Shown here: positions 2,728 through 52,391 of the stretch, piece after piece
How positions within the stretch are numbered: the stretch's first letter is position 1
Layout: each line of letters opens with the position of its first letter
DNA from: a virus
DNA: 64,000 bases
Virus record (IMG/VR): IMGVR_UViG_3300019487_000018
Span: 124,001 to 188,000 of that record
Strand: one strand, 5' to 3'
Program-made: the position numbers and the translations under genes
The notes under the pieces: model-generated
What the model saw: only the letters and a program-made list of their open reading frames with translations
The model's database searches: none
Told to the model about the DNA's origin: nothing

Positions 2728-3966
2728 ATGACAACGTACGTAATCGATTTTTCGGACCCTCTTAAAGATGGGTTTTCGATCGCACCAGGTGGATTCAACG
2801 GACCTGGCGGTTCTGCCTCAAATACATCTCTCCGTCTTTACGGTCGAGGCGCACTAGAATGGGGCGAATCTGTTAATGAAGACCTCGTCCGTCTTACAGA
2901 AAACTTCAACAGCGCTACACCACCTATTACACCAGTTGACGGTATGTTGTGGTTGCGAACAAAGTACTATTGGCTCCGCACGGCAGTTGATTGGTATGTT
3001 CGTGATCCTGATTCACCTGCTGCTTGGGTATTCCTGTCAACAATTGCAACCGGTGGTGTTGTCAACGGTGGTGCTGTAGGTACAAACGTAGCTCCAGCTC
3101 ACGCGATCGGTGTGTATTGGTACACAGGTGGTGCTCCAACTGATCCTCTGACATCGAACCTTGACGCGTTTGGTGACCCACTCACACCCACAACATTGTA
3201 TCGTTGGGACTCAGCATACAAGCAAATTCCAGCCGGTTGGATGCCACAAGCATTTACACAAAATGCAGCTGCTCCAACTGCTGCAAACTTCCCGGAGAAG
3301 AGCTTGTTGGTTTGGGACGCGTTCCAGGGTGTTAGTGGAACGTTCGTTGCTCCACCAATTTCGATTGTTGCACCAACTCAACCAGCACAGGCAACGGAAG
3401 GTACATTGTGGTGGGATAGTGTCAACAACATTCTGTATGTGTGGAACGATTTCACGACAACATGGCAGCCATTGGTTACAGGAGGCGGTGGCGGATCTGG
3501 TGATACGACTTATCTACGTCTTGATGGCACAAACACACCAACAGCTAACCTAAACATTGGTGGCTTCCGTCTGACAAACATTACAACAAACGTAGGTGTA
3601 GCAACTGACGCTTTGAGTGTCGGTGCCGCCGATACTCGTTACGTAAACATAACCGGTGATACAATGACTGGCGTGCTGGCGATGGGTGCATTCAACATCA
3701 CCGGCCTACCTGTCATGTCTTACCCTGACTTGGTCAACACCGAGTTTGCAGCAACAAAGAACTACGTTAATACTGCAGTCACGTCGATTACAAGCGGTGG
3801 CGGTTCGGTTACTGTTCCGTCGGTGTTTGTATCGCCAGCAGTTCCGACCTATAAGGCTGGTGACATCTATGTCTTGGGCGCTGTGATCTACATTGCTATC
3901 GGCGTAGGTGTAGGTGCTCCTCCGGGTGGTAACTGGCGACAAGTGTTCCCAGCACAGTACTCATAA
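2728..3966 (+). CDS. Tail-fibre-type virion protein
   Basis: This is a 412-residue protein. The N-terminus (TYVIDFSDPL, then NTSLRLYGRG and EDLVRLTENF, ending in a PVDGMLWLR segment) recurs in the protein at 17087 and again inside the one at 19388. It looks like a shared attachment module for several fibres. The middle has a glycine linker (GGGGGSG) followed by a fibre repeat with RYVNITGDTMTG, common in phage tail fibres. The C-terminus is short and may trimerise. A late promoter lies upstream, consistent with a structural role. Receptor specificity cannot be inferred. Confidence 0.75.
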   Translation: MTTYVIDFSDPLKDGFSIAPGGFNGPGGSASNTSLRLYGRGALEWGESVNEDLVRLTENFNSATPPITPVDGMLWLRTKYYWLRTAVDWYVRDPDSPAAWVFLSTIATGGVVNGGAVGTNVAPAHAIGVYWYTGGAPTDPLTSNLDAFGDPLTPTTLYRWDSAYKQIPAGWMPQAFTQNAAAPTAANFPEKSLLVWDAFQGVSGTFVAPPISIVAPTQPAQATEGTLWWDSVNNILYVWNDFTTTWQPLVTGGGGGSGDTTYLRLDGTNTPTANLNIGGFRLTNITTNVGVATDALSVGAADTRYVNITGDTMTGVLAMGAFNITGLPVMSYPDLVNTEFAATKNYVNTAVTSITSGGGSVTVPSVFVSPAVPTYKAGDIYVLGAVIYIAIGVGVGAPPGGNWRQVFPAQYS

Positions 3967-3968
3967 AG

Positions 3969-3997
3969 TTGAGATTGTGACCGAGTTGTAGTATGAT
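3969..3997 (+). promoter_or_regulatory. Sigma70-type promoter before the radical SAM cluster
   Basis: TTGAGA at 3969-3974 and TATGAT at 3992-3997 are separated by exactly 17 bases. The radical SAM start codon at 4018 follows at a suitable distance with an AGGAAAAGG ribosome site. This is the only intergenic promoter found for the radical SAM cluster, and it is not of the late type. Confidence 0.6.
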
Positions 3998-4017: not shown

Positions 4018-5193
4018 ATGACAGGAGCTGCAGTCTCATTCTACAAGCGATCTGACGCGGGTACATTGCGTAAGCATACACCGTCAGCATTCAAAACAGC
4101 TCCCCTTGCAATTGCTCCTCAGCTAATGCTGACAGAGCTAATGGTGTATTTGAAGACGACTGAAACCTGTCAACTCAACTGCGCACACTGCTTCACCAAC
4201 GGAATCAACGGACGAAAAATCTACTTCGATCCAGCTCGAACAATCGATTGGTTCCATCGTCTCCATGCAGTAAATCCAACCCTGGCGGGAGGAAGTGTCG
4301 CTTTTCATGGTGGGGAGCCAATGCTTGCTCCAATCGCCGATATGCGTCGTACATGGGAAGCGTGCAAGGATTTGTGGCCAACAGTTTGGTGGACAACAAC
4401 GACAAACCTTGTATACAAACTCGACGATGAAAAGCGCCTATTCTTCAAGGAATGCTTTACAGACGGCATCTCAACTTCTTGGGACAAGAATATCCGATTT
4501 GATAACGAAAAACAGGAAGCTCTGTGGGCTAAAAACGTCCAAACACTTCTCGATGATGGGCATAAGATCACGCTTATGGTAAGCTTAAATCGTGCGATCA
4601 CTGATATGAACCCGGAAGATTTCCTGCGTTGGGTTGGTGATATCGGCGTTCACTATTTGCATCTTGAACGAATCACCCCAAATGGTAACGCAACTCGCAA
4701 CCCACACATCCTTCCTTCAAATAAAGAACTCGATGCTTGGATGCTGCGATTATGGGATGCAAGTTTGAAGCTTGGCACACATAAGTACTTTGCTAATCTG
4801 TTTTTGAACGGAATTTTGTCGAGCTTTGTGTCATTAACACATTCGGGTTGTCGTTGTCGAAGTTGCGAGAAGAAGATTTTCACCCTGAACGCAGATGGAA
4901 CAATTGGCGGATGTCCAAACAGTGCAGTAGACAACACGTTCGGAACAATGGAAGATGATATTTTCTCGTTGCTTAGCAGCGAGGGGCGAATCGAAAACAT
5001 TGCTTGTGAAACACAACGCAATCCGCTGTGCTACACGTGCGATGTTTATGACGTTTGCAACGGTGATTGTCACCAACTTGCATGGGAAGGCGACGTTTGT
5101 GCAAGTCCGAAATCGTTGATGCGTCGATTCAAAGCAGAGAACAATAGAGAACAGTATGAGATGTTCCTTAACGGGTTCATCGGCAAGGAGTAA
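4018..5193 (+). CDS. Radical SAM/SPASM maturase A
   Basis: This is a 391-residue protein. C51-x3-C55-x2-C58 (CQLNCAHC) is the radical SAM [4Fe-4S] motif, and HGGEP at about residue 96 is the GGE motif that contacts S-adenosylmethionine. The C-terminal third is cysteine-rich (CRCRSC, GGCPNS, CYTCDVYDVCNGDC and a final C), matching the SPASM layout that binds auxiliary clusters in peptide-modifying enzymes. Such enzymes act on ribosomally made peptides or protein side chains. The gene has its own sigma70-like promoter and a strong ribosome site. It stops two bases before the start of the protein with the CHSS tail, its most obvious candidate substrate (inference). Confidence 0.9.
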   Translation: MTGAAVSFYKRSDAGTLRKHTPSAFKTAPLAIAPQLMLTELMVYLKTTETCQLNCAHCFTNGINGRKIYFDPARTIDWFHRLHAVNPTLAGGSVAFHGGEPMLAPIADMRRTWEACKDLWPTVWWTTTTNLVYKLDDEKRLFFKECFTDGISTSWDKNIRFDNEKQEALWAKNVQTLLDDGHKITLMVSLNRAITDMNPEDFLRWVGDIGVHYLHLERITPNGNATRNPHILPSNKELDAWMLRLWDASLKLGTHKYFANLFLNGILSSFVSLTHSGCRCRSCEKKIFTLNADGTIGGCPNSAVDNTFGTMEDDIFSLLSSEGRIENIACETQRNPLCYTCDVYDVCNGDCHQLAWEGDVCASPKSLMRRFKAENNREQYEMFLNGFIGKE

Positions 5194-5195
5194 CT

Positions 5196-5849
5196 ATGGC
5201 TATCGCTGGCACAGACATCACGAAAGACAATATCACTGGATCAGGTGGCGTTGACTTGAACTCGTTCAAGCAACAAATCACCGACGTTGTCAACGCACTC
5301 ACAAAAACAACAAGCGTGTCCGCAAACGGGACTGCACTAGGTCAAAAGCCATTTGGTAGTGGTGCACCAATTAGTGGATCGTTGTCAAGCACCAACTATG
5401 GTGGAACACCTCCTCTGTCTGCGCCACTTGTCGCTCCTGGCACGGTGACGAATTCACCACAAGCAAGTGACATTGCAGGTGCGAACATTGCAGCAGCCAC
5501 TCTGATCACATTGTTCCAAAACACAGCTGTATTACTGTCCCGTGTTCGTCGCTATTCAATGGTAAAAACATACCTTAGTCCAGCGCCTGTTATCCAACTA
5601 TCACTTACAGAACCAGGCCGCTATGGTTATCTGACAACAACGTACCAAGCAAATCCAGCAACAACAACACCAGCAATCACGACATCTTTGGCAGCTCTTA
5701 CTGGCGATATTAGTGCAGCAACGTTAAACACAGTAATTGACAACGTTGACACCGCAATTACGAACCACAGAAACACAACCGTCGCGTTCACGGAAACGTG
5801 GTGTCACTCAAGCTGTCACAGCAGTCATAGTTCAAGGAACCGTCGCTAA
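5196..5849 (+). CDS. Putative precursor protein with C-terminal CHSS repeat
   Basis: This 217-residue protein is low in complexity, rich in Thr, Ser, Ala and Asn, and has almost no cysteine until its end. The last 16 residues read WCHSSCHSSHSSRNRR (W202, C203, H204, C207, H208, H211), a tandem CHSS-CHSS-HSS unit. A long cysteine-free body with a short Cys/His tail directly after a SPASM maturase is the layout expected of a precursor whose tail is modified after translation. The body could also be a virion or scaffold protein. The stop overlaps the start of the next gene (TAATG). No homologue with known function is recognised; the substrate role is inference. Confidence 0.8.
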   Translation: MAIAGTDITKDNITGSGGVDLNSFKQQITDVVNALTKTTSVSANGTALGQKPFGSGAPISGSLSSTNYGGTPPLSAPLVAPGTVTNSPQASDIAGANIAAATLITLFQNTAVLLSRVRRYSMVKTYLSPAPVIQLSLTEPGRYGYLTTTYQANPATTTPAITTSLAALTGDISAATLNTVIDNVDTAITNHRNTTVAFTETWCHSSCHSSHSSRNRR

Positions 5850-6613
5850 TGACCACAGTTACAACAGAACTTCCGCTTTCAATGGACGCCTTGCGTCAGG
5901 TAATTACACAACCAGATGCAGGAGTGGTTGTTGACTACAACAACAGTAACCTCAAAGGCCGTGCAGCGCTCATTTACATGACGAATACAAACTTACCAAA
6001 TGTTGCTCTGAACATGACAGATGTGTCTCTCGAAGAGAAGTTTGTACTCGTTGACGACTACATCACTCACAAGTCAATCCTGCATGTAGCACAACTAGTC
6101 AACACCGTTTTGAATGTGTTATTCGCCGTTCGGAAAGTTGACATTGGTGCTGAACAAGACATATTGGATCAAGTGTCGCTATTTCCACAAGAACATGTCG
6201 GCGAATATCTTGCAAATCCAACACGAGCTGAACACATCAACAAGCTGATTGAACTTCTCGACAGTCTACCTCTGTACGCTGTAACGTGTTCAACATCATT
6301 CCGCGAAGTATACGGTAAAGGAAAAGAAGCGTTTGAGCCGGTTAACGACATTGATCATACTGGTTTCACATTCGTCCACCTGTTGACTCATCCGTTGTTC
6401 CTCGAATATTTCACACAACCAGCTACGACGACACTGAAGTATTACGTTCAGCAGTTCGACGAGTACATGTATAACGGAAAATCGTTGTTTCCATTTTTGG
6501 TAAACTCGCCTGTATTCGGTATTCTTGAGTGTTACATCACAGGGGCGGTGGACCTTGATCAGCTGCTTACAGCACACTCAGAAATGAATGCTTTGGAAGG
6601 AGCTGCAGCCTAA
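5849..6613 (+). CDS. Hypothetical protein in radical SAM cluster
   Basis: This is a 254-residue acidic protein with no recognised catalytic motif. It is mostly helical (for example HVAQLVNTVLNVLFAVRK), and its C-terminus is alanine-rich. Start and stop both overlap neighbours by the TAATG arrangement, so it is translationally coupled to the CHSS-tail protein before it and the first paralogue after it. That coupling suggests the four genes from 5196 to 8796 work together. Confidence 0.8.
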   Translation: MTTVTTELPLSMDALRQVITQPDAGVVVDYNNSNLKGRAALIYMTNTNLPNVALNMTDVSLEEKFVLVDDYITHKSILHVAQLVNTVLNVLFAVRKVDIGAEQDILDQVSLFPQEHVGEYLANPTRAEHINKLIELLDSLPLYAVTCSTSFREVYGKGKEAFEPVNDIDHTGFTFVHLLTHPLFLEYFTQPATTTLKYYVQQFDEYMYNGKSLFPFLVNSPVFGILECYITGAVDLDQLLTAHSEMNALEGAAA

Positions 6614-7716
6614 TGCTACACCTGTTCAACAAGATATACGTCAAGGGAGATCATCTTGTGAAAGGTTCGCGAGATGCAATTATCATCTCGCCGACCTATG
6701 GAAATGTTCCATTTTACACGACGAAATTCTCAACTCGGGCAAACAACGAAAAAACAGGCCAACTGTGCTATTCAGCAACGTCGCTCAAAGAACTGCTCGA
6801 CACTCACTTTGGTGGATCTGATGCAAAATTCTTCAATTACCTCATGAAATGGCCTGCCGAGAAACGATTAACGATCTACGCCGATCTTCCGACAATGGTT
6901 GATATTGCAACGAGATTCTTCAAAACAGTATTCCCAAAGATGACGGAAGACACATATGTTGTGGTGATGAAGTTACTGCTCTCCCGTATCAACTACTACC
7001 TAGGCGGAGCTGTTTTGCCATTCGTAACATTAACAGAGGACCAGGCAAATTCATACCGCGTCGAAACACTTCAAATTCTTGAAGATGTTGGTGGATTGCG
7101 CCATCGATTTCAAGAAACTGCACGCTGGCGCCTGACAAAAGTGGCACGTGACAGTATCATCCGCAACTGCAGCGTTGAATACCAATTGGCGACCTATCTA
7201 ACAAATCCAAAATGGGCACATGCTCGTGCGTTTGAGAAAAAGGCTGTGTCAATGGCTAAGAAGCAAATCATTCACGAATATGCTCTAGAAATTAAAGGAG
7301 CTATTGTTCGGAACTTCATGAATCTTATCGTTCTTGAACCGACAGCAACGTTCAATTCTCTGAAAGATTCACTCGAGACGTTTGTTCAACAGTTCCCTCA
7401 GTATGCATTTGTTCTCGATGATGGATTTGTGCCAGACAATGCCGAGCATATCTGGCTTAAATACAACATGGAGGATTTGAAAACAGTGTTTGATCGCGTG
7501 ACACACAAGTTCGTGTTCATTGCACAGGACTACACACCTCTGTTGAAGAAATTGACGTTCGAAGATGTGTTGAAGTATGAGCTGGACCGGCCATATCGCT
7601 GCTTTTTGTTCAATGGTGACAACTATCAGGAAACTGTCAACTCTTACTTGATTGACTATATCCTGAATGCTTATCGGATGAACCAACACGAACAAATTCG
7701 CCAGCTGGCACTGTAA
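6613..7716 (+). CDS. Hypothetical protein, paralogue 1 (MLHLFNK family)
   Basis: This is a 367-residue protein of unknown function. It is clearly related to the next gene: both begin MLHL-NK-Y-K and share DAIIISP near residue 25, a VEYQLATYL or LEYQLATYL segment near residue 185, and a NSYLIDYIL or NTYLLDHLF C-terminal segment. Long helices dominate. No metal-binding or P-loop motif is visible. It might bind or present the substrate to the radical SAM enzymes, or form part of the virion; neither can be shown from the sequence. Confidence 0.8.
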   Translation: MLHLFNKIYVKGDHLVKGSRDAIIISPTYGNVPFYTTKFSTRANNEKTGQLCYSATSLKELLDTHFGGSDAKFFNYLMKWPAEKRLTIYADLPTMVDIATRFFKTVFPKMTEDTYVVVMKLLLSRINYYLGGAVLPFVTLTEDQANSYRVETLQILEDVGGLRHRFQETARWRLTKVARDSIIRNCSVEYQLATYLTNPKWAHARAFEKKAVSMAKKQIIHEYALEIKGAIVRNFMNLIVLEPTATFNSLKDSLETFVQQFPQYAFVLDDGFVPDNAEHIWLKYNMEDLKTVFDRVTHKFVFIAQDYTPLLKKLTFEDVLKYELDRPYRCFLFNGDNYQETVNSYLIDYILNAYRMNQHEQIRQLAL

Positions 7717-7725
7717 GGGAAAACA

Positions 7726-8796
7726 ATGTTACACCTACTAAACAAAGTCTACATTAAACCAGACGCTGATTTCCAGCGAGGTCACGATGCAATTATCATC
7801 TCTCCGAAAACGAAGCTGTTTGACAGCGAACTTTTTGGTGTGGATGACATCGACTTTGGTAAGATCCACTTCACCGCAGAAACATTCGATGCTCTTGTCG
7901 AGGTATTTGGAAGTGAAGACGCTTTTGTACAGTGGTTGGTTTATTTCGATCCGTCGACTCGTCTGGTTGTACATTGTGATCCAGCTACATTCGAGCACAT
8001 TCTGGTTCGATGGCTTAAGACGATCCTTCCAAACATGGACGGTTCGAGTTTTCACAGTCTGATTCGCATAATTTACGCTCGATACGGTTACCAGTTTGGT
8101 TATCCGTACGTTCCATTTGTTCGCCTAACACCAGACGCTGCTGCTGTGTACAAGAGCTTCTTAGCTCGTATTCCTTCAAAGGAACAAGCGGTGCAGATGT
8201 GGAATCAGGCACAGCCATACACTGTGAATGTCGATTCTGCTGCTGTAAGTTTGGAATACCAACTCGCCACATACTTGGATGATCCGACTTGGGAACATAC
8301 CGACCAGCTGAAAGCAAAAGTCATCACCATGGTCAAGAAGTTTCAAGTTGGTTCACTACTCGATGTAAAAGAAGTCATGCTTGGGCACTTGTATATGTTA
8401 CCAGACTTTGATCAGTTGAAAGATACACTGGTACACTATGTTACAGAACACCTCGAATACACATTTTTGCTGGACATGAAACTGACCTCAGACGACTACA
8501 CACGATTGTACGATCAATACAATACAGCTGTACTGCGTCAGATCTACATTGATTACTTCAAAATGCATGCGGATATTTTTGACGAGACACAAGTTGAGAA
8601 AGATCACTTCCTCGATCCTGCAATCACATTTGAACAAATCATCGACAATGAGCTAGCTTCAATCGCTACGCGACAACTGCTTGGCTCGTGGGAATATGGC
8701 CTGACAGTCAACACTTACCTGCTAGACCACCTCTTTGCGCTCGAGAGAGCGAATGACCAGGCTGAGTTGAAGAAGTTCTCGCTCCTAAGGAGTTAG
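7726..8796 (+). CDS. Hypothetical protein, paralogue 2 (MLHLFNK family)
   Basis: This is a 356-residue protein homologous over its full length to the preceding gene, so the pair arose by tandem duplication and has diverged strongly. A good ribosome site (AAGGGAAAACA) precedes its ATG. It ends only two bases before the second radical SAM gene, whose ribosome site (AAGGAG) lies inside this gene's last codons. Function unknown. Confidence 0.8.
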   Translation: MLHLLNKVYIKPDADFQRGHDAIIISPKTKLFDSELFGVDDIDFGKIHFTAETFDALVEVFGSEDAFVQWLVYFDPSTRLVVHCDPATFEHILVRWLKTILPNMDGSSFHSLIRIIYARYGYQFGYPYVPFVRLTPDAAAVYKSFLARIPSKEQAVQMWNQAQPYTVNVDSAAVSLEYQLATYLDDPTWEHTDQLKAKVITMVKKFQVGSLLDVKEVMLGHLYMLPDFDQLKDTLVHYVTEHLEYTFLLDMKLTSDDYTRLYDQYNTAVLRQIYIDYFKMHADIFDETQVEKDHFLDPAITFEQIIDNELASIATRQLLGSWEYGLTVNTYLLDHLFALERANDQAELKKFSLLRS

Positions 8797-8798
8797 CG

Positions 8799-9836
8799 AT
8801 GAGCATGGATTTCGTAATCGACTTCAACCTTGAGCTGTTACATGGTTGCAAGTGGAACTGCACTGGCTGCAATATTGGTAAGGAAGAACAAGACGGCTTT
8901 CTTGACGGCGATTTCGATCGTTTGATGCATTTGTTTGAGGATCTCGAGCGAAACTTTCACATCCTATCAAACGTTGCAATCACACCAACCGACTTCATTG
9001 TTTCGAACAACGCAGAGCAAATTTTCGTTCCAGAACTCAAGCTCATGCTTGACAAGTTCAAGGCGGTAACATTGAACACAACATTCCTGCACGATGATGA
9101 CGTGCTGGAATACTGGGCAGCCAAACTACGACCGCTCCTCAAGGGCAATACTCTGAAGTTTAGTGTTCCTGTCGAACCAGATCACTATATGAACAAGAAG
9201 TACATGGCAAAGATCCTTCACAATCGTGACTACATGGTCAGTTTGCTTCCAGAAACGAAATACACAAAGACGTACTTGATCGGCAATTTGTACGAGTACA
9301 AGAAGTTCGTCGACTTCGAATTCTACAGCGAAGACTTTCACGATAAGTGGGATGGACACCTCGATTTGGTGATTACAGAGGGGCGTCTTAATTTGACGAA
9401 TCCGTTCAACCGTCAGCGGTTGCGTCATATGATCGAATATCAGAACGATCTTTACAATCGCTCTGTTGAACACGATCACGGCAAAATCATCGTCAACTTC
9501 ACGAATGGCAAACGTCACGAAGGCTATGATAAGGACTACGTGTACAAAAACGGTCGGATCTACGCACCAGTATTCGTTGGAGAACCGCTGGTCACGTTTG
9601 AGGAAGGCTACTATCTGGATCGATCAGTTGAGTGGAACACAGACAATCTCGTTGAGTTTGAGAATCGAATGACCGTAGAAAGCTTTGAATATCTGCCACA
9701 AACACAACACTGTGCTACCTGCGAATTTGCGAATGCGTGTGTTGCTCGTGGTCTTACCAAGTTGATGAAAACCTTGAAAGTTACGGACTGCTTGGCACCA
9801 AAGCCGGCTTTCACGTTCTTGAGGCAGGTTGCATGA
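8799..9836 (+). CDS. Radical SAM protein B with C-terminal cysteine cluster
   Basis: This is a 345-residue protein. The radical SAM motif C17-x3-C21-x2-C24 (CKWNCTGC) sits near the N-terminus. No canonical GGE is seen; the equivalent region reads NVAITPTDF. The C-terminus has CATCEFANAC followed about 17 residues later by another Cys, like a shortened SPASM or twitch domain. It is more divergent than enzymes A, C and D, so its reaction cannot be predicted. Its stop overlaps the start of radical SAM C (ATGA), so the two are made together and may act in sequence or as a heterodimer. Confidence 0.82.
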   Translation: MSMDFVIDFNLELLHGCKWNCTGCNIGKEEQDGFLDGDFDRLMHLFEDLERNFHILSNVAITPTDFIVSNNAEQIFVPELKLMLDKFKAVTLNTTFLHDDDVLEYWAAKLRPLLKGNTLKFSVPVEPDHYMNKKYMAKILHNRDYMVSLLPETKYTKTYLIGNLYEYKKFVDFEFYSEDFHDKWDGHLDLVITEGRLNLTNPFNRQRLRHMIEYQNDLYNRSVEHDHGKIIVNFTNGKRHEGYDKDYVYKNGRIYAPVFVGEPLVTFEEGYYLDRSVEWNTDNLVEFENRMTVESFEYLPQTQHCATCEFANACVARGLTKLMKTLKVTDCLAPKPAFTFLRQVA

Positions 9837-10975
9837 GTCCAATCAAATTCTACCGCACGAGACCTGAACTAGAGTTCGTGCCTGATAATCGGCACATGGA
9901 ATTGATCATCAAGCCTACAGAGGCATGTAACTTCAAATGCACGTTCTGCTCGAGCACGAACATCACAGACGAAAAAGCTAAAGTCCTCGACTTAGAGTCG
10001 ATCTACGCCTTCCTCAAGCGGTTCCCCAACACACACTCAATCATTGTCAATGGTGGAGATCCATTGATGGTCAAGCCATGGTATTACTGGGAGATCATCA
10101 AATACTGCGACGACAACAACTTGCCGACAAACCTTAGCTTCACCACGAACCTATGGGCATTCTATAAGAAACCAGAGATGTGGGTAGACCTGTTCCGACA
10201 CGATCGTGTCGGTGTCACAACGTCTTTTAACTACGGTAACACACGGCGAATTACAGATGATGAAGTATTCACAGAAGATATTTTCTGGAAGGTCAGCGAT
10301 AAGGTGCTAGAGTATATTGGTTATCGACCAGATTTTATCTCAGTGATTACAGACGAGAACGAAGATACGGCAATAGATAATGTTCGTCTTGCACAGGCTA
10401 TGAGTGTCGAATGTAAGCTAAACTACGCAATGGCAAGCGGAATACAAAGTGCACCATATCAATTGTCAAAGATTTATCGCACATATACAGAGATCTATGA
10501 ACTAGGACTCTGGCCGTGGGAATATAATACCAAGCAGATGATGCAACGTTTGGACGGCAAAGCATCTAGCTGTCCACAACTACGTTCCTGTGATGAAGGC
10601 ATTCGATGCTTACAACCAAGTGGTGATTATTACTCATGTGGCGCATTTGGTGATGATCGAGAATATCCAATCAACTTCCAACAAGAAGTGATTGAAGGTA
10701 AGTTCTTCACACCGCTTCAATCAGCACCAGAATTGCTGTCACTAAAAGAAGAATGTCACACATGTCCGATGTTCAAAATTTGCAATGGATGTCGTAAGAC
10801 GATCACAGACATGAAACGTCATAATGTCGTTGAGGAACATTGCACATTGATGAAGACAATCGCGAAAAAGATCATCAATATCAATGACGAATCGGCTAAC
10901 TTACTAATTGATCGCACGTTAAAGAAGGGAGCTCGCAAGTATGAGCCTTGTACACTAAATACCGTTCTCGCATAA
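9833..10975 (+). CDS. Radical SAM/SPASM protein C
   Basis: The start is set at the ATG overlapping the previous stop (ATGA), giving 380 residues. C32-x3-C36-x2-C39 (CNFKCTFC) is the radical SAM motif. NGGDP at about residue 72 replaces GGEP, a common variant. A full SPASM-like C-terminus follows: CDEGIRC, a Cys in DYYSCGAF, CHTCPMFKICNGC and a later Cys. SPASM proteins usually modify peptides or proteins by forming carbon-centred crosslinks or thioethers. A free-standing HNH gene follows immediately. Confidence 0.88.
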   Translation: MSPIKFYRTRPELEFVPDNRHMELIIKPTEACNFKCTFCSSTNITDEKAKVLDLESIYAFLKRFPNTHSIIVNGGDPLMVKPWYYWEIIKYCDDNNLPTNLSFTTNLWAFYKKPEMWVDLFRHDRVGVTTSFNYGNTRRITDDEVFTEDIFWKVSDKVLEYIGYRPDFISVITDENEDTAIDNVRLAQAMSVECKLNYAMASGIQSAPYQLSKIYRTYTEIYELGLWPWEYNTKQMMQRLDGKASSCPQLRSCDEGIRCLQPSGDYYSCGAFGDDREYPINFQQEVIEGKFFTPLQSAPELLSLKEECHTCPMFKICNGCRKTITDMKRHNVVEEHCTLMKTIAKKIININDESANLLIDRTLKKGARKYEPCTLNTVLA

Positions 10976-11002
10976 ATGAGCGTCGAGCCTTGGAGGACTG
11001 AT

Positions 11003-11500
11003 ATGAAGCTAACAGAAAAACAGAAAGAGGTTCGGCGACGTTATTACAAAGAGAACAGAACTGAGATTCTGGAACATCAAAAGAACCGACGCACTGCCCA
11101 GAAAAAACACATTACACAGCTCGGAAAAACATGGCGTGAAAACAACAAAGACAAAACGAAGCGATACGGGGAAAATCACTACAAGAATCACAAAGATGAT
11201 TACACCACACGCTCCAGAAGGTGGCGCGAAAACAACCCCGAGCGTAAAATATTGGCCCGGCTGCGGGCAGGAGCGAAGAAAGAGCATATTCCATTCAATC
11301 TAGAGTTGGAAGACGTCAAGATACCGAATATATGTCCAGTTTTAGGCATTGCACTTGAAAGAGGAAGGGAAGCTTTTAAGAAACTACAATGTCCGTCGGC
11401 CGATCGAATTGTTCCAAAACTTGGATACGTTCGTGGTAATGTGCGATTTATAAGTCTTCGCGCCAACTTGATTAAATCGAACCGTCGGCTGAAGAACTGA
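11003..11500 (+). CDS. HNH-type homing endonuclease
   Basis: The start is placed at the ATG at 11003, after a TGGAGGACTG ribosome site, giving 165 residues. The N-terminal half is very basic, with repeated KNRR/WRENN segments, as in DNA-binding arms of free-standing homing enzymes. The C-terminal half has CPVLGI, an ADRI segment and GYVRGNVRFIS, the pattern shared with the genes at 16483 and 51888 in this window. Such genes spread by cutting homologous sites and have no role in the host operon. It interrupts the radical SAM cluster between enzymes C and D. Confidence 0.75.
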   Translation: MKLTEKQKEVRRRYYKENRTEILEHQKNRRTAQKKHITQLGKTWRENNKDKTKRYGENHYKNHKDDYTTRSRRWRENNPERKILARLRAGAKKEHIPFNLELEDVKIPNICPVLGIALERGREAFKKLQCPSADRIVPKLGYVRGNVRFISLRANLIKSNRRLKN

Positions 11501-11545
11501 TAAAAGTATACGAGTATATTGTACGAGAACGAGCGAGAATGACTG

Positions 11546-12643
11546 ATGAACCTTGCACAGCTAGTACTGCAACGCAAGCGTGATACCGATCAAGAATACA
11601 CGATTCACTTGTTTGAGAAGTGCAATCTAACGTGTAATTTCTGTTGGCAAGATCACACTGCGAATATTGGTCTGGATACTGTTCGACAAAAGATTCCAAT
11701 CTTATGTGAGATGCTTGATGAAGATCCACATCACAAGTATACAATCAACATCATGGGTGGAGAGGTTTTTGCTGATGATATCTTCACGGAAAAGATGTGG
11801 GGGGATTACTACGCTCTATGCTGGTGGTCACATAAACATGTTGAGAAACTAGGGAAGGACATTACGTTCAATTTCGTAACCAATCTCGTCACCACGAAGA
11901 CAAAAGAAATTTTTGATTTGCTCCACGCATTGCGACGGGAAGGTGTTAAGGTTAAACTGACAACGTCTTACGACGCAAAGGGTCGCTTCAATAAAGCTCA
12001 ACTAGCAACGTTCAAAGAGAACATTGAAGTATTTCGTAATGAGCTTGAAGGAATCAGCATGTTGCTCACAAAGCCAGTAATCAAGCAGCTTGTTGAAGGA
12101 AAGGACGAATATTTCAAGTATCTGTACGACCAGGGGTTCTACATCTACTTCGACTACTATTCACCAGAAGACGACTATCTGTTGGTCGGTCCATCTGATA
12201 AGGATCTGCTTAAGGCGTTCTACTTCCTGGTGGACAACTACCCGAATGTACATCCGATCAAAGAGTGGATTGAGAACCACACAAACTTCATGTCTTGTAG
12301 AAGCTCCAAACTGATCAACCCTGATGGTACGAAGTGCATGTGTGGGAATTTGCTGTTAGATAATAAGCACGTTGTAACGTTCTTTAAGGCAAAGATACAA
12401 AAGGCTGACAACGATGAAATTGAGAACAATTTTTTGAACAGATGGGATTGTTTGTCGTGCGAATATTTCAGTCGTTGCACGTTGGGATGCTTCGTCCAAC
12501 ACGATTTCATGAAGCGCGGACAGATGAAAGAGTGCCCTTTCAAGCTGACTTTCGATAAAATCACCAAGGGAACAGAAGTTGACATCGATCTCTTGGAAAC
12601 ATATTATGGGGAAGACCCTACAACTGACAATCGGGTACAGTGA
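11546..12643 (+). CDS. Radical SAM/SPASM protein D
   Basis: This is a 365-residue protein. The radical SAM motif is C26-x3-C30-x2-C33 (CNLTCNFC), with MGGEVF at about residue 70. The C-terminus carries CRSSKLINPDGTKCMC, CLSCEYFSRCTLGC and a terminal Cys, an arrangement close to a complete SPASM domain. It is preceded by a weak AT-rich gap left around the homing endonuclease. Its stop overlaps the glycosyltransferase-like gene downstream by 38 bases, so it belongs to the same expression unit. Confidence 0.88.
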   Translation: MNLAQLVLQRKRDTDQEYTIHLFEKCNLTCNFCWQDHTANIGLDTVRQKIPILCEMLDEDPHHKYTINIMGGEVFADDIFTEKMWGDYYALCWWSHKHVEKLGKDITFNFVTNLVTTKTKEIFDLLHALRREGVKVKLTTSYDAKGRFNKAQLATFKENIEVFRNELEGISMLLTKPVIKQLVEGKDEYFKYLYDQGFYIYFDYYSPEDDYLLVGPSDKDLLKAFYFLVDNYPNVHPIKEWIENHTNFMSCRSSKLINPDGTKCMCGNLLLDNKHVVTFFKAKIQKADNDEIENNFLNRWDCLSCEYFSRCTLGCFVQHDFMKRGQMKECPFKLTFDKITKGTEVDIDLLETYYGEDPTTDNRVQ

Positions 12644-13073
12644 TCTATATATTGCACAAGTACTCCAGCACAGTATTCGTCGTCGTGCATCAATTGGCAC
12701 AGATTTTCGTTTTGTGTTGCGTGTGTCGAATGTAGTAGAATCACCGCTTCTGTGGAACTATGAGGGAGATTGGTCAATCTTCCTCGACGCGAAAATGCTT
12801 TGTTTGTGCGACATAAAGGAACTTACGGAACATTTCGACCCGCAATACGCCGTTCAGTTTGTTAAGTTCGCTGAACAACCATTGGCTGTAGTTGTATTCA
12901 ATCACAACAAATTTGGCCGAACACCCGATCTCCATGACAAAGAAATTGGAGACCTGCCTTCAGAGTTTAACAGCGAATTCCCAACAGCAAAAATTCTTCG
13001 GTACGACAACGACCCATACAACTCTCAACTTTGGAAAGATGAACTCGATGACATGCTCCGAACTTACAGTTGA
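12606..13073 (+). CDS. Small glycosyltransferase-like protein (GT8-like, degenerate DxD)
   Basis: The start at ATG 12606 gives 155 residues. It opens with IGYSDLYIAQVLQHSI, followed by a region corresponding to the GT-A nucleotide-sugar fold: GDWSIFLDAKMLCLCDI. In related bacterial proteins this site reads as a DxD metal-binding motif within a MDxDM segment; here the second Asp is Lys (LDAKM). The segment AVQFVKFAEQ also fits that family. The protein is shorter than usual and lacks the C-terminal part. It may be inactive, binding-only or use another metal mode. A sugar-transfer role in the cluster is inference. Confidence 0.5.
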   Translation: MGKTLQLTIGYSDLYIAQVLQHSIRRRASIGTDFRFVLRVSNVVESPLLWNYEGDWSIFLDAKMLCLCDIKELTEHFDPQYAVQFVKFAEQPLAVVVFNHNKFGRTPDLHDKEIGDLPSEFNSEFPTAKILRYDNDPYNSQLWKDELDDMLRTYS

Positions 13074-13908
13074 GAACTTCATCTCCCAGCAATGGATCCA
13101 TAAAAATCGCTACGTACTTAACGCAAGAACAGTGACACCTGAATGTGTTGAGTCCTTGAACGCACAGGCATTCAAACGATTCCAGTTATCAAATCATCAA
13201 CGCAAATACTCGAAGTCGCCAATTCGAATCGATATCTGTGAGTGGCTAGAACGTCGGGCGTCATTCTCTCTACATGAATACGACTACACAATTCCACCAG
13301 GGTATGTAACGCCAATTGAGTTTTTTAGCGAGGCGCAGCCATGGCGAATGCTGTTGCTTTCTTTCGATCCATATGCGTCAATCCTGCAGCGAAAGCTGTT
13401 CACCGATGCACGATTCGTTGAACGTGCATACGAAGAAAAGGACGATATGTATTCACCGAAATCGTTCCTGTTGGAACAGATTGAACTTGGATGGCTTGGC
13501 TACAGCGAATTTGAAGACTGTATTTTCATTCACCACATACAAGTGCGAGGTGCACTCAAAGAAGGAATGCGATACAATGACCTTGTTTGGTTCTATAGAT
13601 ACTTGGTTCGTGCATTTACGCAGATGTTGCCCGAAGGGAAGTTGAAGCATGTGTACGCACCAGATGCAGCAACGTTGTCGCTGTACAGCGAACGTCTGGT
13701 CGGGAATGCGTCAATAGTACTTCCGTATTCGCGGCATGTGCTACGAAAGAGCGACTTTCATACGGTTGGCTGGGACGCGTTTGCAACACAATCACCAATC
13801 GCGGCGGCTAAATGCAAGATGCGTGATGTGTTACTGCCAGACGAGATAACACTTTGGAGATACGATTATAATGATCCACACACTTTGGCACGACAGAATT
13901 CTGATTGA
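13048..13908 (+). CDS. Hypothetical protein in radical SAM cluster
   Basis: The start is chosen at ATG 13048, overlapping the previous gene by 26 bases, giving 286 residues. It is rich in aromatic residues and contains mixed alpha/beta segments (RMLLLSFDPYASIL, IFIHHIQVRG, VWFYRYLVRAF). No cofactor motif was recognised. It overlaps the first 2OG oxygenase gene by 38 bases. Coupling to enzymes on both sides suggests a role in the same modification pathway, perhaps a transferase or a binding partner. Confidence 0.75.
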   Translation: MTCSELTVENFISQQWIHKNRYVLNARTVTPECVESLNAQAFKRFQLSNHQRKYSKSPIRIDICEWLERRASFSLHEYDYTIPPGYVTPIEFFSEAQPWRMLLLSFDPYASILQRKLFTDARFVERAYEEKDDMYSPKSFLLEQIELGWLGYSEFEDCIFIHHIQVRGALKEGMRYNDLVWFYRYLVRAFTQMLPEGKLKHVYAPDAATLSLYSERLVGNASIVLPYSRHVLRKSDFHTVGWDAFATQSPIAAAKCKMRDVLLPDEITLWRYDYNDPHTLARQNSD

Positions 13909-14473
13909 AGACGATTTGCTTGACCCGCAAGGCTGGAGTAATTTTCGAGACTGGGTCGGAGTGGAATTTGGTCGTCGACAGACAAAACCAATTATGTCAA
14001 TCGACCATCTCAACTTGCCACCTGAACTCGGTTACTACGCAGCCATGCTTGACGGTGCCGTGACAAACTATTGCGAAGCTTGTGGCATAGACTATGCAAT
14101 GGATATTGTAAACCTACAGGCAACTTGGGTTGAGAATTACAACGAAACAAGTCACCATGAATTCGTACATGAACCACATCACGACCTTTCGGAAGGTGGC
14201 TATCTTGTTGCTGTGTATTATGTATGTACAGATGTGAATTCACTAACAAGATTTGTTGGGGGAGACCTGGCGATATACAAGGCACTGACATATAGTGAAT
14301 ACCCCGAGGGAATGGTTCACGTTCGTGCAATACCGAACCGGTTGGTTGTTTTTCCTGCTATGCTTTACCATCGCATCAAACCATACTTCGGTCGTTCCCC
14401 ACGAATTGCATTGTCGGCTGTGTTGTCTAAATCAGCCGACACAGTTCAAAACAAGAGAGTTTGCACACTATGA
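13871..14473 (+). CDS. 2-oxoglutarate/Fe(II)-dependent oxygenase 1
   Basis: This is a 200-residue protein of the prolyl-4-hydroxylase-like double-stranded beta-helix type. The Fe(II) triad is visible as H103-x-D105 (EPHHDLS) and distal H167 (LYHRIKPYFG), with R178 placed to bind the 2-oxoglutarate carboxylate. VGGDLAIY between them is the usual strand. Such enzymes hydroxylate side chains, often Pro, Asp, Asn or His, using O2 and 2-oxoglutarate. Two different oxygenases beside five radical SAM genes suggest successive modification of one target, but the target is unproven. Its stop overlaps the next oxygenase (ATGA). Confidence 0.85.
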   Translation: MIHTLWHDRILIEDDLLDPQGWSNFRDWVGVEFGRRQTKPIMSIDHLNLPPELGYYAAMLDGAVTNYCEACGIDYAMDIVNLQATWVENYNETSHHEFVHEPHHDLSEGGYLVAVYYVCTDVNSLTRFVGGDLAIYKALTYSEYPEGMVHVRAIPNRLVVFPAMLYHRIKPYFGRSPRIALSAVLSKSADTVQNKRVCTL

Positions 14474-15105
14474 ACTTCTACAAATTGTGGGCGTATCCAA
14501 TTTACACATGCGAAAACGTTCTCCTCGACACCGAACGTCAGCAGGTGGCCGACTATGTGCTACATCGATTCAAAGATCTGGACGACGACAAAATAGTCAA
14601 CGTTCACGTTGCTGTTGATGGCGAGTTGGACAAAATTCCAAGCGATCTAAAGCTGTTGTATTACGCATTGTATGTGAAGTTTTCTCAATATGTCTTCGAA
14701 TGCGGAAATCCTCTTGAAGAGTACTTTCTTCACAGGATTGCTATGAATAAGACTCGCGCATTCGTTCCAGGACGAGACGAAGGTGTGATTTATGAATTGC
14801 ACGCGGACGATAGCGTGAATGACATTACATGCGTCTACTACGCTCAAATCGATACAGTACACGCTAATGGTGGTAGTGCCGGCGGCGACCTGCGAATCTA
14901 CAACCGAGCGGTGCTCGACACAACCGATGATACACGCGAAGCGTATGTCACTTGCAAACCAGTTGACAATAAAGCAGTAATGTTCCCGGGCAGTTTGATT
15001 CACGAGGTTCGTCCATATTTTGGTGAGCGTCCTCGAGTTAGTCTAAACTACAAGTTTCGTCGTTACCGCAGGAACATCTCTTTGAAACCAAAGCTGGTAA
15101 TATGA
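14470..15105 (+). CDS. 2-oxoglutarate/Fe(II)-dependent oxygenase 2
   Basis: The start at ATG 14470, overlapping the previous stop, gives 211 residues. The metal triad is H111-x-D113 (ELHADDS) and H178 (LIHEVRPYFG), with R189 for 2-oxoglutarate. It shares the GGDLRIYN and PYFGERPRVSLNY elements with oxygenase 1, so the two are related but clearly diverged; N-terminal halves differ most. It probably acts on a different position or intermediate. The stop overlaps the start of radical SAM E (ATGA). Confidence 0.85.
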   Translation: MNFYKLWAYPIYTCENVLLDTERQQVADYVLHRFKDLDDDKIVNVHVAVDGELDKIPSDLKLLYYALYVKFSQYVFECGNPLEEYFLHRIAMNKTRAFVPGRDEGVIYELHADDSVNDITCVYYAQIDTVHANGGSAGGDLRIYNRAVLDTTDDTREAYVTCKPVDNKAVMFPGSLIHEVRPYFGERPRVSLNYKFRRYRRNISLKPKLVI

Positions 15106-16046
15106 AACCAGTCACTCTATCAATCAATCCACTGTATCTGTGCAACTTTCGGTGCAAGTTTTGTTATCTAACACCAGAACAACTTGCAGACAAGAAGAAA
15201 ATCGATCATGTCCGTCTTGACCAAATGCTCTCTGAGGTCACAATGGTTACGGCAATCCAACACGTTGACTTGTACGGTGGAGAAATTGCACTGCTTTCCG
15301 ATGAGTACTTTGATGATATGAAGCGGATCATCCGACAGTACTACTACAAGCCGATCAACGTTGTCACTAACCTGTCGAGAGTTCCGAAATTTTTCATGCC
15401 ACCTGACATTCAATTGTCCGTGAGTTTTGATTTCGATTGTCGCGAACGGTACGAAGAAGTGTACAGAAACATGGCAACTGTTCAGAAGCCGCTGCATGTT
15501 CTGGTTTTAGCTAGCAGGTGCTTAATCGACAAAGACGTCGACTACATGATTATGATGCTGAACACATTACAAAATGTTCGGACAGTTGAGATCAAACCGT
15601 ATAGCACGAATCAAGCAAACCAACATACCGTGTCGCACGCAGACTTCGAACGATTCGTTAAACGTTGGTTGACGAGTCGGATTCCAAAACGATTTGCGTT
15701 TATCAACGAGCAGAAGATTATCGAAGCGCTTCGCGGATCGTACAACGCATTTAGTGATGACCATGTCTATATCACCCCTAATGGCAAGTTTGCGGTGCTT
15801 GATTTCGACGAGAGCGATCACGAGAAGTTCACAGAGCTCGACCACTTTGTGGACTATGTCCGGTGGACAGAACATGAGAAACAACTAATCGGAAGCAATT
15901 CATACTGCCAAACCTGTCCATATTTCGGTCACTGTTTGACAGAACACTATCGTTGGGTGAAAGATCTCGAAAACTCGTGCAATGGTTACAGGTTCCTTTT
16001 GGATTGGTGCAATGAAAGAATGGAAAATCCGGCAGCAAATCTATGA
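15102..16046 (+). CDS. Radical SAM protein E
   Basis: This is a 314-residue protein. The radical SAM motif C14-x3-C18-x2-C21 (CNFRCKFC) is followed by LYGGEIAL at about residue 57. The C-terminus has CQTCPYFGHC and a later Cys, a twitch or short SPASM-like cluster. It is the last of five radical SAM enzymes in the cluster. It lacks the features of QueE, so it is not an obvious partner of the FolE2 gene elsewhere in the window. It overlaps the next gene by 35 bases. Confidence 0.87.
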   Translation: MKPVTLSINPLYLCNFRCKFCYLTPEQLADKKKIDHVRLDQMLSEVTMVTAIQHVDLYGGEIALLSDEYFDDMKRIIRQYYYKPINVVTNLSRVPKFFMPPDIQLSVSFDFDCRERYEEVYRNMATVQKPLHVLVLASRCLIDKDVDYMIMMLNTLQNVRTVEIKPYSTNQANQHTVSHADFERFVKRWLTSRIPKRFAFINEQKIIEALRGSYNAFSDDHVYITPNGKFAVLDFDESDHEKFTELDHFVDYVRWTEHEKQLIGSNSYCQTCPYFGHCLTEHYRWVKDLENSCNGYRFLLDWCNERMENPAANL

Positions 16047-16440
16047 TCGTACGTGGCACGACCACGATGACTTGGTCTGCCATTCAAAGATCATTGACAC
16101 CAGTGAACTGGGATTTGATCCCAGCTTTGCAGGCAAAGTTGGTTCATATTTTATGTGGGAATGGGATGTTCTCGTCTATCCGGAGAAGTCGTATGCAGTT
16201 GCAATGGTTTACGCAAAACTGCTCGAGAAATACTTCGGTGAGAACTTCTATGAGGTGTTAGACGATCAAGATTTGTTGCTTGGCGACAAGTACTTTGTTC
16301 GCTACAGCAAAAACAAAGAATGGTACGACAAGTTGATCGCAACTATGGACGAATGGAAATTGTGGGACTTTGAAAACAGCAAGTTACCGCAGGTTCAGGC
16401 GACCATCACGTACTTTAAGAAGGAGTTTCAGCTGATCTAA
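16012..16440 (+). CDS. Hypothetical protein at end of radical SAM cluster
   Basis: The start at an ATG inside the end of radical SAM E gives 142 residues. It is aromatic-rich (WHDHDD near residue 15, MWEWDVLVY near 48, WKLWDFE near 120) with a helical C-terminus. Nothing identifies a family. It closes the operon: a late promoter and a homing endonuclease gene follow. Confidence 0.7.
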   Translation: MKEWKIRQQIYDRTWHDHDDLVCHSKIIDTSELGFDPSFAGKVGSYFMWEWDVLVYPEKSYAVAMVYAKLLEKYFGENFYEVLDDQDLLLGDKYFVRYSKNKEWYDKLIATMDEWKLWDFENSKLPQVQATITYFKKEFQLI

Positions 16441-16482: not shown

Positions 16483-17061
16483 ATGAAACGCTGCACTTGC
16501 TCACTACACGAGGGAACAAATCCTCTCCCCATTTCATTCTTCACCAAAGACGCATCGACCTCTGATAGCCTATCCCGACTGTGTCGACTTTGTTCTCAAC
16601 GACGCTCCGCGGAAATACGAAATAGACGCAGAAAGAAACAACAAACGCTCACGAGAGAGCGATACAAAAACGATCCAATGTTTCGAGCGAAAGCTTTGGC
16701 TAGCTCTCGGTCCTACCAGCGCAGAAGACTTGCTGAAGACCCTATGTATGCACACAAATTGGAGATGTGGAGGAACGCACGATCGCGCGCTGTACGAAAA
16801 GGTCTAACATTCACAATAACAGTCGACGACATAAGCATCCCTCAGCGTTGCCCCATTCTTGATCTTCCGTTGACGCGAAATCAGGGCAGGCGAGGTCCAA
16901 CGGAGGAATCTCCGACACTCGATAGAATTGATCCAAAGCACGGCTACGTTCCTGGAAATGTCATCGTGATCAGCATGCGGGCGAACACCATCAAAAGTTT
17001 TGGTACGCCAGAAGAACACTTCAAGATTTACCGGTTTCTATCACAGTTGACTCAGAGATAA
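16483..17061 (+). CDS. HNH-type homing endonuclease
   Basis: This is a 192-residue protein. The N-terminus has HEGTNPLPISFF and CRLCSQRR, resembling a zinc-ribbon-like recognition segment, then a basic linker. The C-terminal domain has CPILDL, LDRIDPKHGYVPGNV and ISMRANTIKS, closely similar to the gene at 11003. This family usually acts as free-standing homing endonucleases in T4-like genomes. It has its own perfect late promoter and sits between the modification cluster and the long fibre genes. Confidence 0.75.
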   Translation: MKRCTCSLHEGTNPLPISFFTKDASTSDSLSRLCRLCSQRRSAEIRNRRRKKQQTLTRERYKNDPMFRAKALASSRSYQRRRLAEDPMYAHKLEMWRNARSRAVRKGLTFTITVDDISIPQRCPILDLPLTRNQGRRGPTEESPTLDRIDPKHGYVPGNVIVISMRANTIKSFGTPEEHFKIYRFLSQLTQR

Positions 17062-51887: not shown

Positions 51888-52391
51888 TCAATTTGTCGTG
51901 CTTGTCTCATTGTGTTTCACAAAAGTATGGAAGATTCGTTCGATTATCTGAGAAAACTCCTTGGTTGTCAATCCCGATTTCATCGTGTTAATTTGAGCAC
52001 AACACAGAACAACATTTTCTGGAACATAACCGAGTGTGTTATCTTTGCGATCAACACAAATGCTCATTCCTCCATTCCGCTGCCGGGTCATTGACTCTCC
52101 GCTATAGAAACACCGACCATTTTGCATCTCGAACAATTGCTCTAGATGTTGCTTATCAATAGTGCATGGGAGATTGGCCGCCATTGCGCGTTCTCTTGCT
52201 TGTAGATACCTATACTGGAAGATATTTTCATCTTGCCAGCGACTTGAACGATTGCGATATTCTGTTTTGGCTTCTTCCGATAGACCGTCGTATCGACGTT
52301 TTACTTTATCGATCGTACATTGTTTGCATCGAGATTTGTTGCTTTTGTAAAATTGCTGTCGATCAACACATTCACATTGTACACATTTCAT
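51888..52391 (-). CDS. HNH-type homing endonuclease
   Basis: This is a 167-residue protein. Two N-terminal knuckles (CVQCECVD and CKQCT) form a zinc ribbon, followed by a basic stretch. The nuclease-like part has GRCFYSGESM, DRKDNTLGYVPENVVLCC and INTMKSG, corresponding to the same elements in the genes at 11003 and 16483. A GGGGAGTAATTATT leader and a TCTAAATA late-type motif precede it. It stands at the boundary where gene composition changes. Confidence 0.72.
   Translation of the reverse strand: MKCVQCECVDRQQFYKSNKSRCKQCTIDKVKRRYDGLSEEAKTEYRNRSSRWQDENIFQYRYLQARERAMAANLPCTIDKQHLEQLFEMQNGRCFYSGESMTRQRNGGMSICVDRKDNTLGYVPENVVLCCAQINTMKSGLTTKEFSQIIERIFHTFVKHNETSTTN

Follow-up and report, generated by a model that had tools for sequence, protein, structure and literature searches.

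A phage cassette of radical SAM genes as a candidate maturation system for a His-x-Ser protein tail

The window analysed here is a stretch of 64,000 nucleotides (positions 124,001 to 188,000 of the IMG/VR virus record IMGVR_UViG_3300019487_000018). This record of 193,297 bases belongs to a tailed phage, and a gene resembling a sheath gene and one resembling a terminase gene can be made out by eye outside the cassette. At window positions 4018-16440, 15 tightly packed plus-strand genes form a cassette with five radical S-adenosylmethionine (SAM) enzymes, two 2-oxoglutarate (2OG) oxygenases and one protein ending in a tail of His-containing repeats. We propose that the cassette is a dedicated maturation system for the C-terminal tip of a fibre-associated protein, resembling those of ribosomally synthesised and post-translationally modified peptides (RiPPs); we put the probability of this reading at about 65%. 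We observe gene linkage, a conserved tail, membership of the enzymes in their families and frequent fibre-type neighbours. A genetically encoded core linked to modifying enzymes, one general feature of RiPP pathways, is what the sequences indicate. A preliminary description of this DNA had suggested one pathway with the phage CHSS-tail protein as its candidate substrate, and this suggestion gains support from the gene set, which co-occurs in mostly conserved order in phages and in bacterial chromosomes.

In the mechanism that we propose, the product of 5196-5849 (hereafter the precursor), a folded protein that is probably part of the virion, would carry an unstructured tail of His-x-Ser/Asn units, usually placed after Cys. 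The radical SAM enzymes, aided by the partner proteins B and C, would modify this tail, the best-fitting reaction being a crosslink between every His and the beta-carbon at i+2; thiol chemistry might be added at the tail Cys. The 2OG oxygenases, and a cupin-like enzyme in other phages, may hydroxylate the tail. The product would be a hardened or metal-binding tip borne by, or acting beside, tail fibres in host-surface contact, and some predatory Bdellovibrionota would keep the system next to fibre-chaperone proteins, perhaps for prey contact. Our confidence is strong for the tail as the likely substrate of the cassette enzymes, moderate for the presence of the tail protein in the virion, and weak to moderate both for the proposed type of crosslink and for a role in host contact.

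Linkage of the tail gene to radical SAM genes

IMG/VR stretches were selected in two ways (gene handles as in Table 1). Set (a) was chosen by the DNA pattern of the tail, blind to enzymes, and comprised at least 120 stretches. Set (b) was chosen by a profile of rA, the radical SAM gene that marks the system, blind to the tail; the profile gave 361 relatives, of which the 80 best-scoring ones make up the set. Some contigs occur in both sets. Among the matches listed for set (a), 116 of 120 had a tail-ending open reading frame (ORF). Of the 116, 111 had a same-strand gene of the five radical SAM families and 91 had B, many stretches being incomplete. In set (b), a tail ORF lay downstream of rA in 73 of 80 loci. 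Six of the remaining loci have fewer than 700 bases downstream, and one, L157, lacks the tail over 1,210 bases; its close relative L156 has the tail 982 bases on. None of the 2,918 other stop-ended ORFs of the set (b) loci carried the tail. The 73 precursors reduce to 60 distinct sequences. Since the tail itself chose set (a), tail conservation is circular there, and the residue counts given below are therefore from the rA-chosen set.

We analysed gene content in the 48 rA loci with at least 7.5 kb downstream. The tail protein and B were present in all 48, rX in 44, C in 40, rY in 38, a cupin-like gene in 31 and rZ in 20; tl was found in 13, many loci ending before its place. The radical SAM genes numbered two to six per locus. 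In 45 of the 48, the first family gene following rA was the tail ORF, and the commonest longer order was cupin, rA, tail, B, C, rY, rX, rZ, with oxygenases interspersed. Two tandem tail proteins occur in L058:11753-13467 and in L011, L022, L028, L043 and L055; in a second type of locus such tandem proteins are accompanied by a run of rTr-type enzymes replacing the rA set.

Performing tblastn with rA, we obtained eight phage records, seven of them with at least 80% query cover and E ≤7e-66; the eighth, Thermus phage phiLo, was a weak match (8e-4). Two of the seven records are one phage, leaving six isolates: Atu_ph07, Phosso, FLC6, FLC8, SURPRISE13 and DT01. In all six of these isolated jumbo phages the order begins with the cupin-like gene, rA and the tail protein. 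Identity of the window rA to its homologues in five of the isolates is 54, 53, 43, 43 and 36%, and that of rX to isolate counterparts is 53-61%. Megablast of window positions 1-24000 against phages gave no match. Neither did tblastn of the precursor (the window protein and two other types) against phages, because conservation is confined to the short tail. Two genes annotated as dihydrofolate reductase lie inside Burkholderia phage cassettes (L003:21307-22520; FLC6 and SURPRISE13). The published descriptions of FLC6 and SURPRISE13, in the portions consulted, mention their cupin, radical SAM and 2OG genes only as annotations, and the RP12/RP31 paper treats radical SAM genes in the same way.

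The preliminary description had named independent scattering of the homologues as an outcome that would speak against a common pathway. The homologues are not scattered in this way, as the gene set travels together in mostly kept order: the genes are linked in the isolates, in the tail-chosen stretches, in the enzyme-chosen contigs and in bacterial chromosomes.

The repeat and its candidate chemistry

The window precursor matches phrog_35144 weakly (E 0.009, residues 166-217). This family, labelled 'unknown function', already groups such proteins, as 41 of the 42 members of the precursor alignment match it at E ≤0.1. The window sequence and the six isolates, which were found via rA, share 12 invariant columns among the seven sequences; ten are in the tail and the rest of the proteins are hardly alike. 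The isolate tails read FCHSSCHASCHNSRSRR in Atu_ph07, YCHTSCHASCHSSRSRR in Phosso, VCHSSCHTSCHGSRGRR in three Burkholderia phages and ICHTSCHTSCHSARGRR in DT01. Among rA-selected tails the unit is C-H-small-[S/N], and one group of tails ends in CHGSI or CHGSL without RxRR. The L165 tail has five units, and that of L126:7832-8515 is expanded to eleven CH units, arranged in blocks of which CHSSCHDSCHSNVV is an example; here nature has itself varied the repeat. The window tail has three His-x-Ser units and only two Cys; its relative L155 likewise has two Cys, and one of its units is His-x-Ala. In the bacterial tail variants NYCHTNVPTPPPCHASRGRR, QYCHGNFPPPCHGSRGRR and NYCHSNHCSHSNHGSRGRR the Cys spacing is changed and His-x-[Ser/Asn] is kept. 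The only other match to the repeat pattern in the window genome, a second CHASCH site, was rejected, being out of frame inside a sheath-like gene. Short matches to the tail pattern also occur in Atu_ph07, FLC6 and FLC8, and in the reversed-pattern controls of five of nine records.

In the 60 distinct rA-selected precursors, the residue two places after His is Ser at 137, Asn at 38, Ala at 6, Lys at 1 and Gly at none of 182 places, which are not independent because the precursors are related. The residue directly after His is Gly at 59 of the same 182. Gly, often found at i+1 and never at i+2, fits a bond to the beta-carbon at i+2, which needs a side chain there.

Such bonds have a precedent in the triceptides, where SPASM-type radical SAM enzymes (XncB, OscB, MscB, HaaB, YhhB) link an aromatic residue i to the beta-carbon of residue i+2. 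In the part of PMC11002830 consulted, His C2-to-Cbeta(i+2) crosslinks are described for HaaB (with Ala) and for YhhB (with Arg), as is a Phe-Ser link made by MscB. Consistent with a triceptide core (aromatic at i, side-chain-bearing residue at i+2), all 182 places read His-x-[S/N/A/K]. By this analogy, a His-to-Cbeta(i+2) link in the tail is our first guess, a tentative one that falls somewhat short of even odds; sulfur links and beta-hydroxylation of the tail are possible additions. Unlike in triceptides, the substrate here would be the tail of a folded, fibre-linked protein, with several radical SAM genes and oxygenases, in a system that is largely viral. The triceptide models were not passed, the best being YhhB at 23.3 bits against 445, with XyeB and FxsB lower.

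Another known arrangement, the Hxs system, has C-terminal His-x-Ser repeats next to paired radical SAM enzymes. The HxsA model found no match among 42 precursors at E ≤1. HxsC matches scored 32.7 bits (rX) and 13.1 bits against a cut-off of 267.9, and HxsB was not among the best 25 families listed. The His-Xaa-Ser motif and HxsB/HxsC are mentioned in the consulted part of PMC9062424. At the level of models, membership in the Hxs and triceptide groups fails, and the triceptide-like working chemistry stands as a resemblance.

The cluster motif supports placing five of the cassette enzymes in the radical SAM superfamily. The five ORFs with C-x3-C-x2-C reported earlier, starting at 4018, 8799, 9833, 11546 and 15102, are all present, and the motif is kept in 133/133, 78/78, 86/86, 50/53 and 121/121 distinct homologues of the five families (the last being rTr), or 468/471 overall. 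Four of the proteins match phrog_1802 (radical SAM; rX at 1e-53, the others in Table 1). The fifth, rTr, matches a PHROG of unknown function and no radical SAM model. With the Pfam Radical_SAM cut-off of 29.5 bits, rX lies above and rA (17.9), rY (19.7) and rZ below, and rTr has no match. SPASM-like Cys sets had also been proposed; at least four Cys do occur in the C-terminal half of 468/471 homologues of the five families, but the SPASM model TIGR04085 stayed below its cut-off of 27 with rA (23.7 bits), rX (26.5) and rY (17.5), and gave no match with rTr. Among the radical SAM proteins, the NCBIfam scan covered rA, rTr, rX and rY, and it listed the best 25 families.

The 2OG assignments made earlier held for both proteins. 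The one at 14470 (scanned from 14461) passes PF13640 with 32.0 bits against a cut-off of 27; that at 13871 scores 21.8 bits with PF13759, below the cut-off of 27, in addition to its phrog_81 match. A His-Asp-His-Arg tally was positive in 18 of 22 homologues of the first oxygenase in gene order and in 7 of 40 of the second (15 of 43 with a looser pattern); either the search patterns misfit or some members are degenerate.

Performing AlphaFold2 prediction on the precursor of L107 (42 sequences), we obtained a mean predicted local distance difference test (pLDDT) score of 86.3, with 51 for the last ten residues, and the precursor is probably a folded body with an unstructured tail. Among predicted viral proteins, Foldseek found the precursor fold clearly in two short proteins and in the 296-residue Atu_ph07 homologue. 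Three Myoviridae sp. ctijX18 proteins gave weaker matches, with E from 7e-5 to 0.01. The model of window B had a mean pLDDT of 89.8, with viral matches at E ≤0.001 in Atu_ph07, RSF1, an uncultured phage, ctWb16 and ctijX18. Atu_ph07 and ctijX18 turn up among both the B and the precursor matches, so the fold comparison repeats the co-occurrence. Against the Protein Data Bank (PDB), the precursor model had Z ≥2 with none of 619 aligned chains and B reached at best Z 4.8 over residues 1-60 only. These PDB comparisons assigned no fold to the precursor or to B. A PDB sequence search with the precursors returned one weak homeodomain match (E 0.006), which we do not believe.

Another reading of the tail is that it forms a metal-binding tip (Zn, Fe or Cu), as other phage tail tips do, and is hardly or not at all changed covalently; the enzymes would then have a different target, host glycans, tRNA and nucleotides being examples. 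In favour of this reading, spike tips that bind metal are known, Cys-His pairs are good ligands, and the FLC6 and SURPRISE13 cassettes include the two dihydrofolate-reductase-annotated genes. However, metal binding alone leaves unexplained both the linkage of the tail to rA and the absence of Gly at i+2, and the NCBIfam matches of rA and rX, though weak, are mostly peptide or protein maturases. We regard this reading as unlikely. It is highly improbable that the cassette serves host takeover or viperin-like defence, with the tail protein as a regulator rather than a substrate: three of the radical SAM proteins do match viperin models weakly, but at 20-24 bits against a 180-bit cut-off, and the cassette has one tail protein (two in the second locus type), a mostly fixed order and often a place beside fibres.

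Fibre neighbours and predatory bacteria

The upstream genes were listed in 15 rA loci; nine genes from eight loci were first picked for their fibre-like look and the other loci were scanned afterwards. A tail-family protein lies directly upstream in 10 of the 15. In L156, the counterpart of the window gene at 2728..3966 matches tail fibre families at 1.6e-8. In two loci a tryptophan halogenase gene (phrog_2928; L194:3953-5551, L199:3942-5519), then a 2OG oxygenase gene (phrog_81 in L194), stands just upstream of the cassette; these genes possibly serve more tail or fibre chemistry.

For Atu_ph07, whose tail protein is gene 170, the consulted part of the report of Attai et al. states that most virion proteins detected by mass spectrometry are encoded in three clusters, of which one spans coding sequences 170-215 (PMC6102473). 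The gene numbering agrees, the record likewise giving gp215 as the major head protein. Going by this position, gp170 is likely present in the Atu_ph07 particle.

The virion cluster also bears on whether the tail is cleaved off as a small RiPP against competitors or the host, directed for example at an outer-membrane protein as darobactin and dynobactin are, the folded part being a large leader. The DynA model was the first or second NCBIfam match of rX and rA, though weak: as maturases of dynobactin and darobactin, DynA and DarE are among the matches of rA and rX, but these score 24-42 bits where the cut-offs are 450 and 650. The terminal RxRR may act as a signal, and Gram-negative envelopes are encountered by phages as well as by predators. 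The position of the core speaks against release: it forms the very end of the protein, which leaves RxRR outside any junction of leader and core, and in some tails RxRR is missing. The precursor body is predicted to be a folded domain, gp170 of Atu_ph07 bounds the virion cluster, and the scanned window proteins included no recognisable protease or exporter. The scans of these proteins also recognised no RiPP recognition element (RRE). We consider release quite unlikely.

The system is also found in bacteria. In a species-genome collection the tail DNA pattern gave 19 stretches, 12 with a tail ORF (11 with cassette genes and one at a contig end). The other seven matches comprised one inside another ORF and six without a tail ORF, so the pattern alone yields chance matches in this collection. 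Four of the 12 tail ORFs are in Bdellovibrionaceae, Halobacteriovoraceae or Bacteriovoracaceae assemblies; the others, in assorted metagenome bins, may be phage contigs. Performing a search of 368 Bdellovibrionota genomes, we found rA at E ≤1e-40 in 18. Nine of these have the strict triple repeat and four of the others have variant tails. In five genomes (G001, G003, G005, G060, G113) the flanking genes are chromosomal by Pfam (acyl-CoA dehydrogenase, COX1, SecA, FixO, cytochrome b, pyruvate kinase), and one of these cassettes is on a contig of 4,153,408 bases. The ordinary chromosomal flanks and the 4.15 Mb contig speak against mis-binned phage contigs as the source in these five genomes; short bacterial contigs (5-11 kb) may still be phage. 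The tail-sheath family PF04984 was not found in seven of eight cassette genomes, which is compatible with a chromosomal location and no proof of it.

The Peptidase_S74 domain, which serves as chaperone in phage tail fibres, lies within 17 kb of rA on the same contig in nine of the ten genomes examined among the 18 (all but G357), and S74 domains are scarce in those ten (2 to 19 each, 59 in all). The neighbouring S74 proteins have 331-430 residues, and the type IV prepilin N_methyl motif scored above its cut-off in six of the eight scanned. Bdellovibrio recognises prey with tail-fibre-like MAT adhesins, some with S74, according to the consulted part of PMC10769870. These MAT fibres (mosaic adhesive trimers) are a parallel in being predator proteins that have S74 chaperones and the build of phage tail fibres; the cassette-linked S74 proteins differ in their size and, mostly, in their prepilin N_methyl motif. 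Neither 'pilin' nor 'radical SAM' occurs in the main text of that paper. Near two bacterial cassettes there are extra proteins of 570-579 residues with the start NPPHADWSxANN (L238:1572-3311, L241:13568-15280), perhaps B12-binding radical SAM enzymes.

In a FastTree phylogeny of 52 sequences, including five rX as outgroup, the bacterial rA sequences are spread over about six positions among those of phages; support is weak (0.55) for some, and some of the bacterial contigs are short. This placement suggests repeated exchange between phages and bacteria, in one direction or the other. We entertain, as a doubtful extension of the proposal, that phage tails and predator surface fibres may share one enzymatically cross-linked His-x-Ser tip, repeatedly exchanged, as a device made on ribosomes and hardened after translation for touching or breaching Gram-negative envelopes.

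Several observations weigh against a dedicated maturation system for a fibre-associated tip. His-x-Ala or His-x-Lys units occur in some tails, and in two bacterial tails the number of His is only two. Five of the 15 loci (L165, L190, L194, L199, L221) show no fibre among the upstream genes examined; in their place, a DnaJ-like gene was seen in two loci, a tryptophan halogenase gene (1e-139, 2e-144) with 2OG-type genes in another two, and an endolysin-like gene in one. Virion membership of gp170 rests on a cluster boundary, gene 170 being the lowest-numbered. All NCBIfam maturase matches of rA, rX and rY are far under their cut-offs (the best of rA is an anaerobic sulfatase maturase, 42 bits against 349), so the reaction is not assignable by homology. 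The 2OG enzymes are not universal, as neither an oxygenase nor a cupin was recognised within the stretch covered in 17 of the 48 long loci; the window's near-identical relative L154 is among these 17 because its oxygenases lie further along. The B and C families have no assigned function, and the radical SAM enzymes are more numerous than three links of one kind need.

Cassette layout and implications

Besides the radical SAM, 2OG and tail genes, the cassette holds one endonuclease-type gene (10976), four conserved uncharacterised families (5849, 6613, 7726, 16012) and two genes without a recognised family (12606, 13048). The close coupling of the genes noted earlier was borne out, with gaps of -38 to +9 bases in 13 of 14 cases and 45 bases in the other. 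The match of C2 to the C profile is by construction, because C2 was itself put into that profile. The endonuclease VII/HNH-type gene at 10976-11500 had been overlooked and is probably a mobile insertion into the cassette. Further HNH/endonuclease-VII-like ORFs lie at 16483-17061 (plus strand; phrog_3322, 4.5e-32) and 51888-52391 (minus strand; by eye), which suggests homing endonucleases dispersed through the phage genome.

The protein at 12606 had been called GT8-like (glycosyltransferase family 8), a label that found no support: the protein had no Pfam or NCBIfam match at E ≤1, a best PHROG match of 0.14 and no PDB match better than E 0.18. Its relatives are in a near-identical virus and in one other contig (L091, 1.1e-7). 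The 13048 protein had no relative in the loci searched apart from the near-identical virus. A host-type promoter had been placed at 3969; the 10/12 match exists, but the region has 16 such sites against 20.6 expected by chance.

Table 1 Cassette genes and fibre-like neighbours in the window
Feature	Position	Strand	Evidence
rA, radical SAM/SPASM-like, system marker	4018..5193	+	phrog_1802 2e-57; motif CQLNCAHC
Precursor, likely substrate	5196..5849	+	tail WCHSSCHSSHSSRNRR at about 5799-5846; homologous tails elsewhere
B, conserved partner protein, uncharacterised	5849..6613	+	phrog_20767 1.1e-35
C1, conserved partner protein, uncharacterised	6613..7716	+	phrog_36207 1.8e-10
C2, probable C1 paralogue	7726..8796	+	N-terminus similar by eye
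rTr, divergent radical SAM	8799..9836	+	motif CKWNCTGC; phrog_31457 9.5e-23
rX, radical SAM/SPASM-like	9833..10975	+	Pfam Radical_SAM 36.4 bits
HNH/endonuclease VII-type gene, not part of the pathway	10976..11500	+	phrog_3322 6.9e-27
rY, radical SAM/SPASM-like	11546..12643	+	phrog_1802 2e-41
Uncharacterised protein, earlier 'GT8-like'	12606..13073	+	no convincing family match; rare
Uncharacterised protein	13048..13908	+	start picked by ATG overlap; no convincing family match for longer reading 12892-13908
2OG-Fe(II) oxygenase 1	13871..14473	+	PF13759 below cut-off; phrog_81 2e-10
2OG-Fe(II) oxygenase 2	14470..15105	+	PF13640 above cut-off
rZ, radical SAM	15102..16046	+	phrog_1802 1.5e-35; Pfam 26.4 bits
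tl, small conserved closing gene (MKEWKIRQ...)	16012..16440	+	phrog_20737 7.5e-30, longer reading from 15982
Fibre-like virion gene, upstream neighbour	2728..3966	+	weak virion/tail fibre PHROG matches 4.5e-5, 0.008
Tail-fibre-like gene, downstream neighbour	17087..19378	+	phrog_9729 tail fiber 4.5e-10

Further along the window, we noticed three ORFs by eye. One at 19388-23722 (plus strand) encodes 1,444 residues with a long glycine-rich repeat of the VTITGGTGG type, and next to it, at 23732, is an ORF with RCC1-like repeats. The third, at 34897-36612 (minus strand), is nucleotide-kinase-like, its P-loop GSQGSGK...TT apparently split by a large intein-like insert with HN before TT.

Our search of an open literature library found no account of a radical SAM or RiPP-type modification of a phage structural protein, most subscription papers being outside the scope of this search. 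If the proposal is true, this would be, as far as we know, the first such modification of a phage structural protein. The system is found in many phages and would tie phage adsorption to bacterial predation. Several cultured phages carry the cassette, so the chemistry of the tail could be read by mass spectrometry, and the cassette would be a source of new enzymes acting on the C-terminal ends of proteins.

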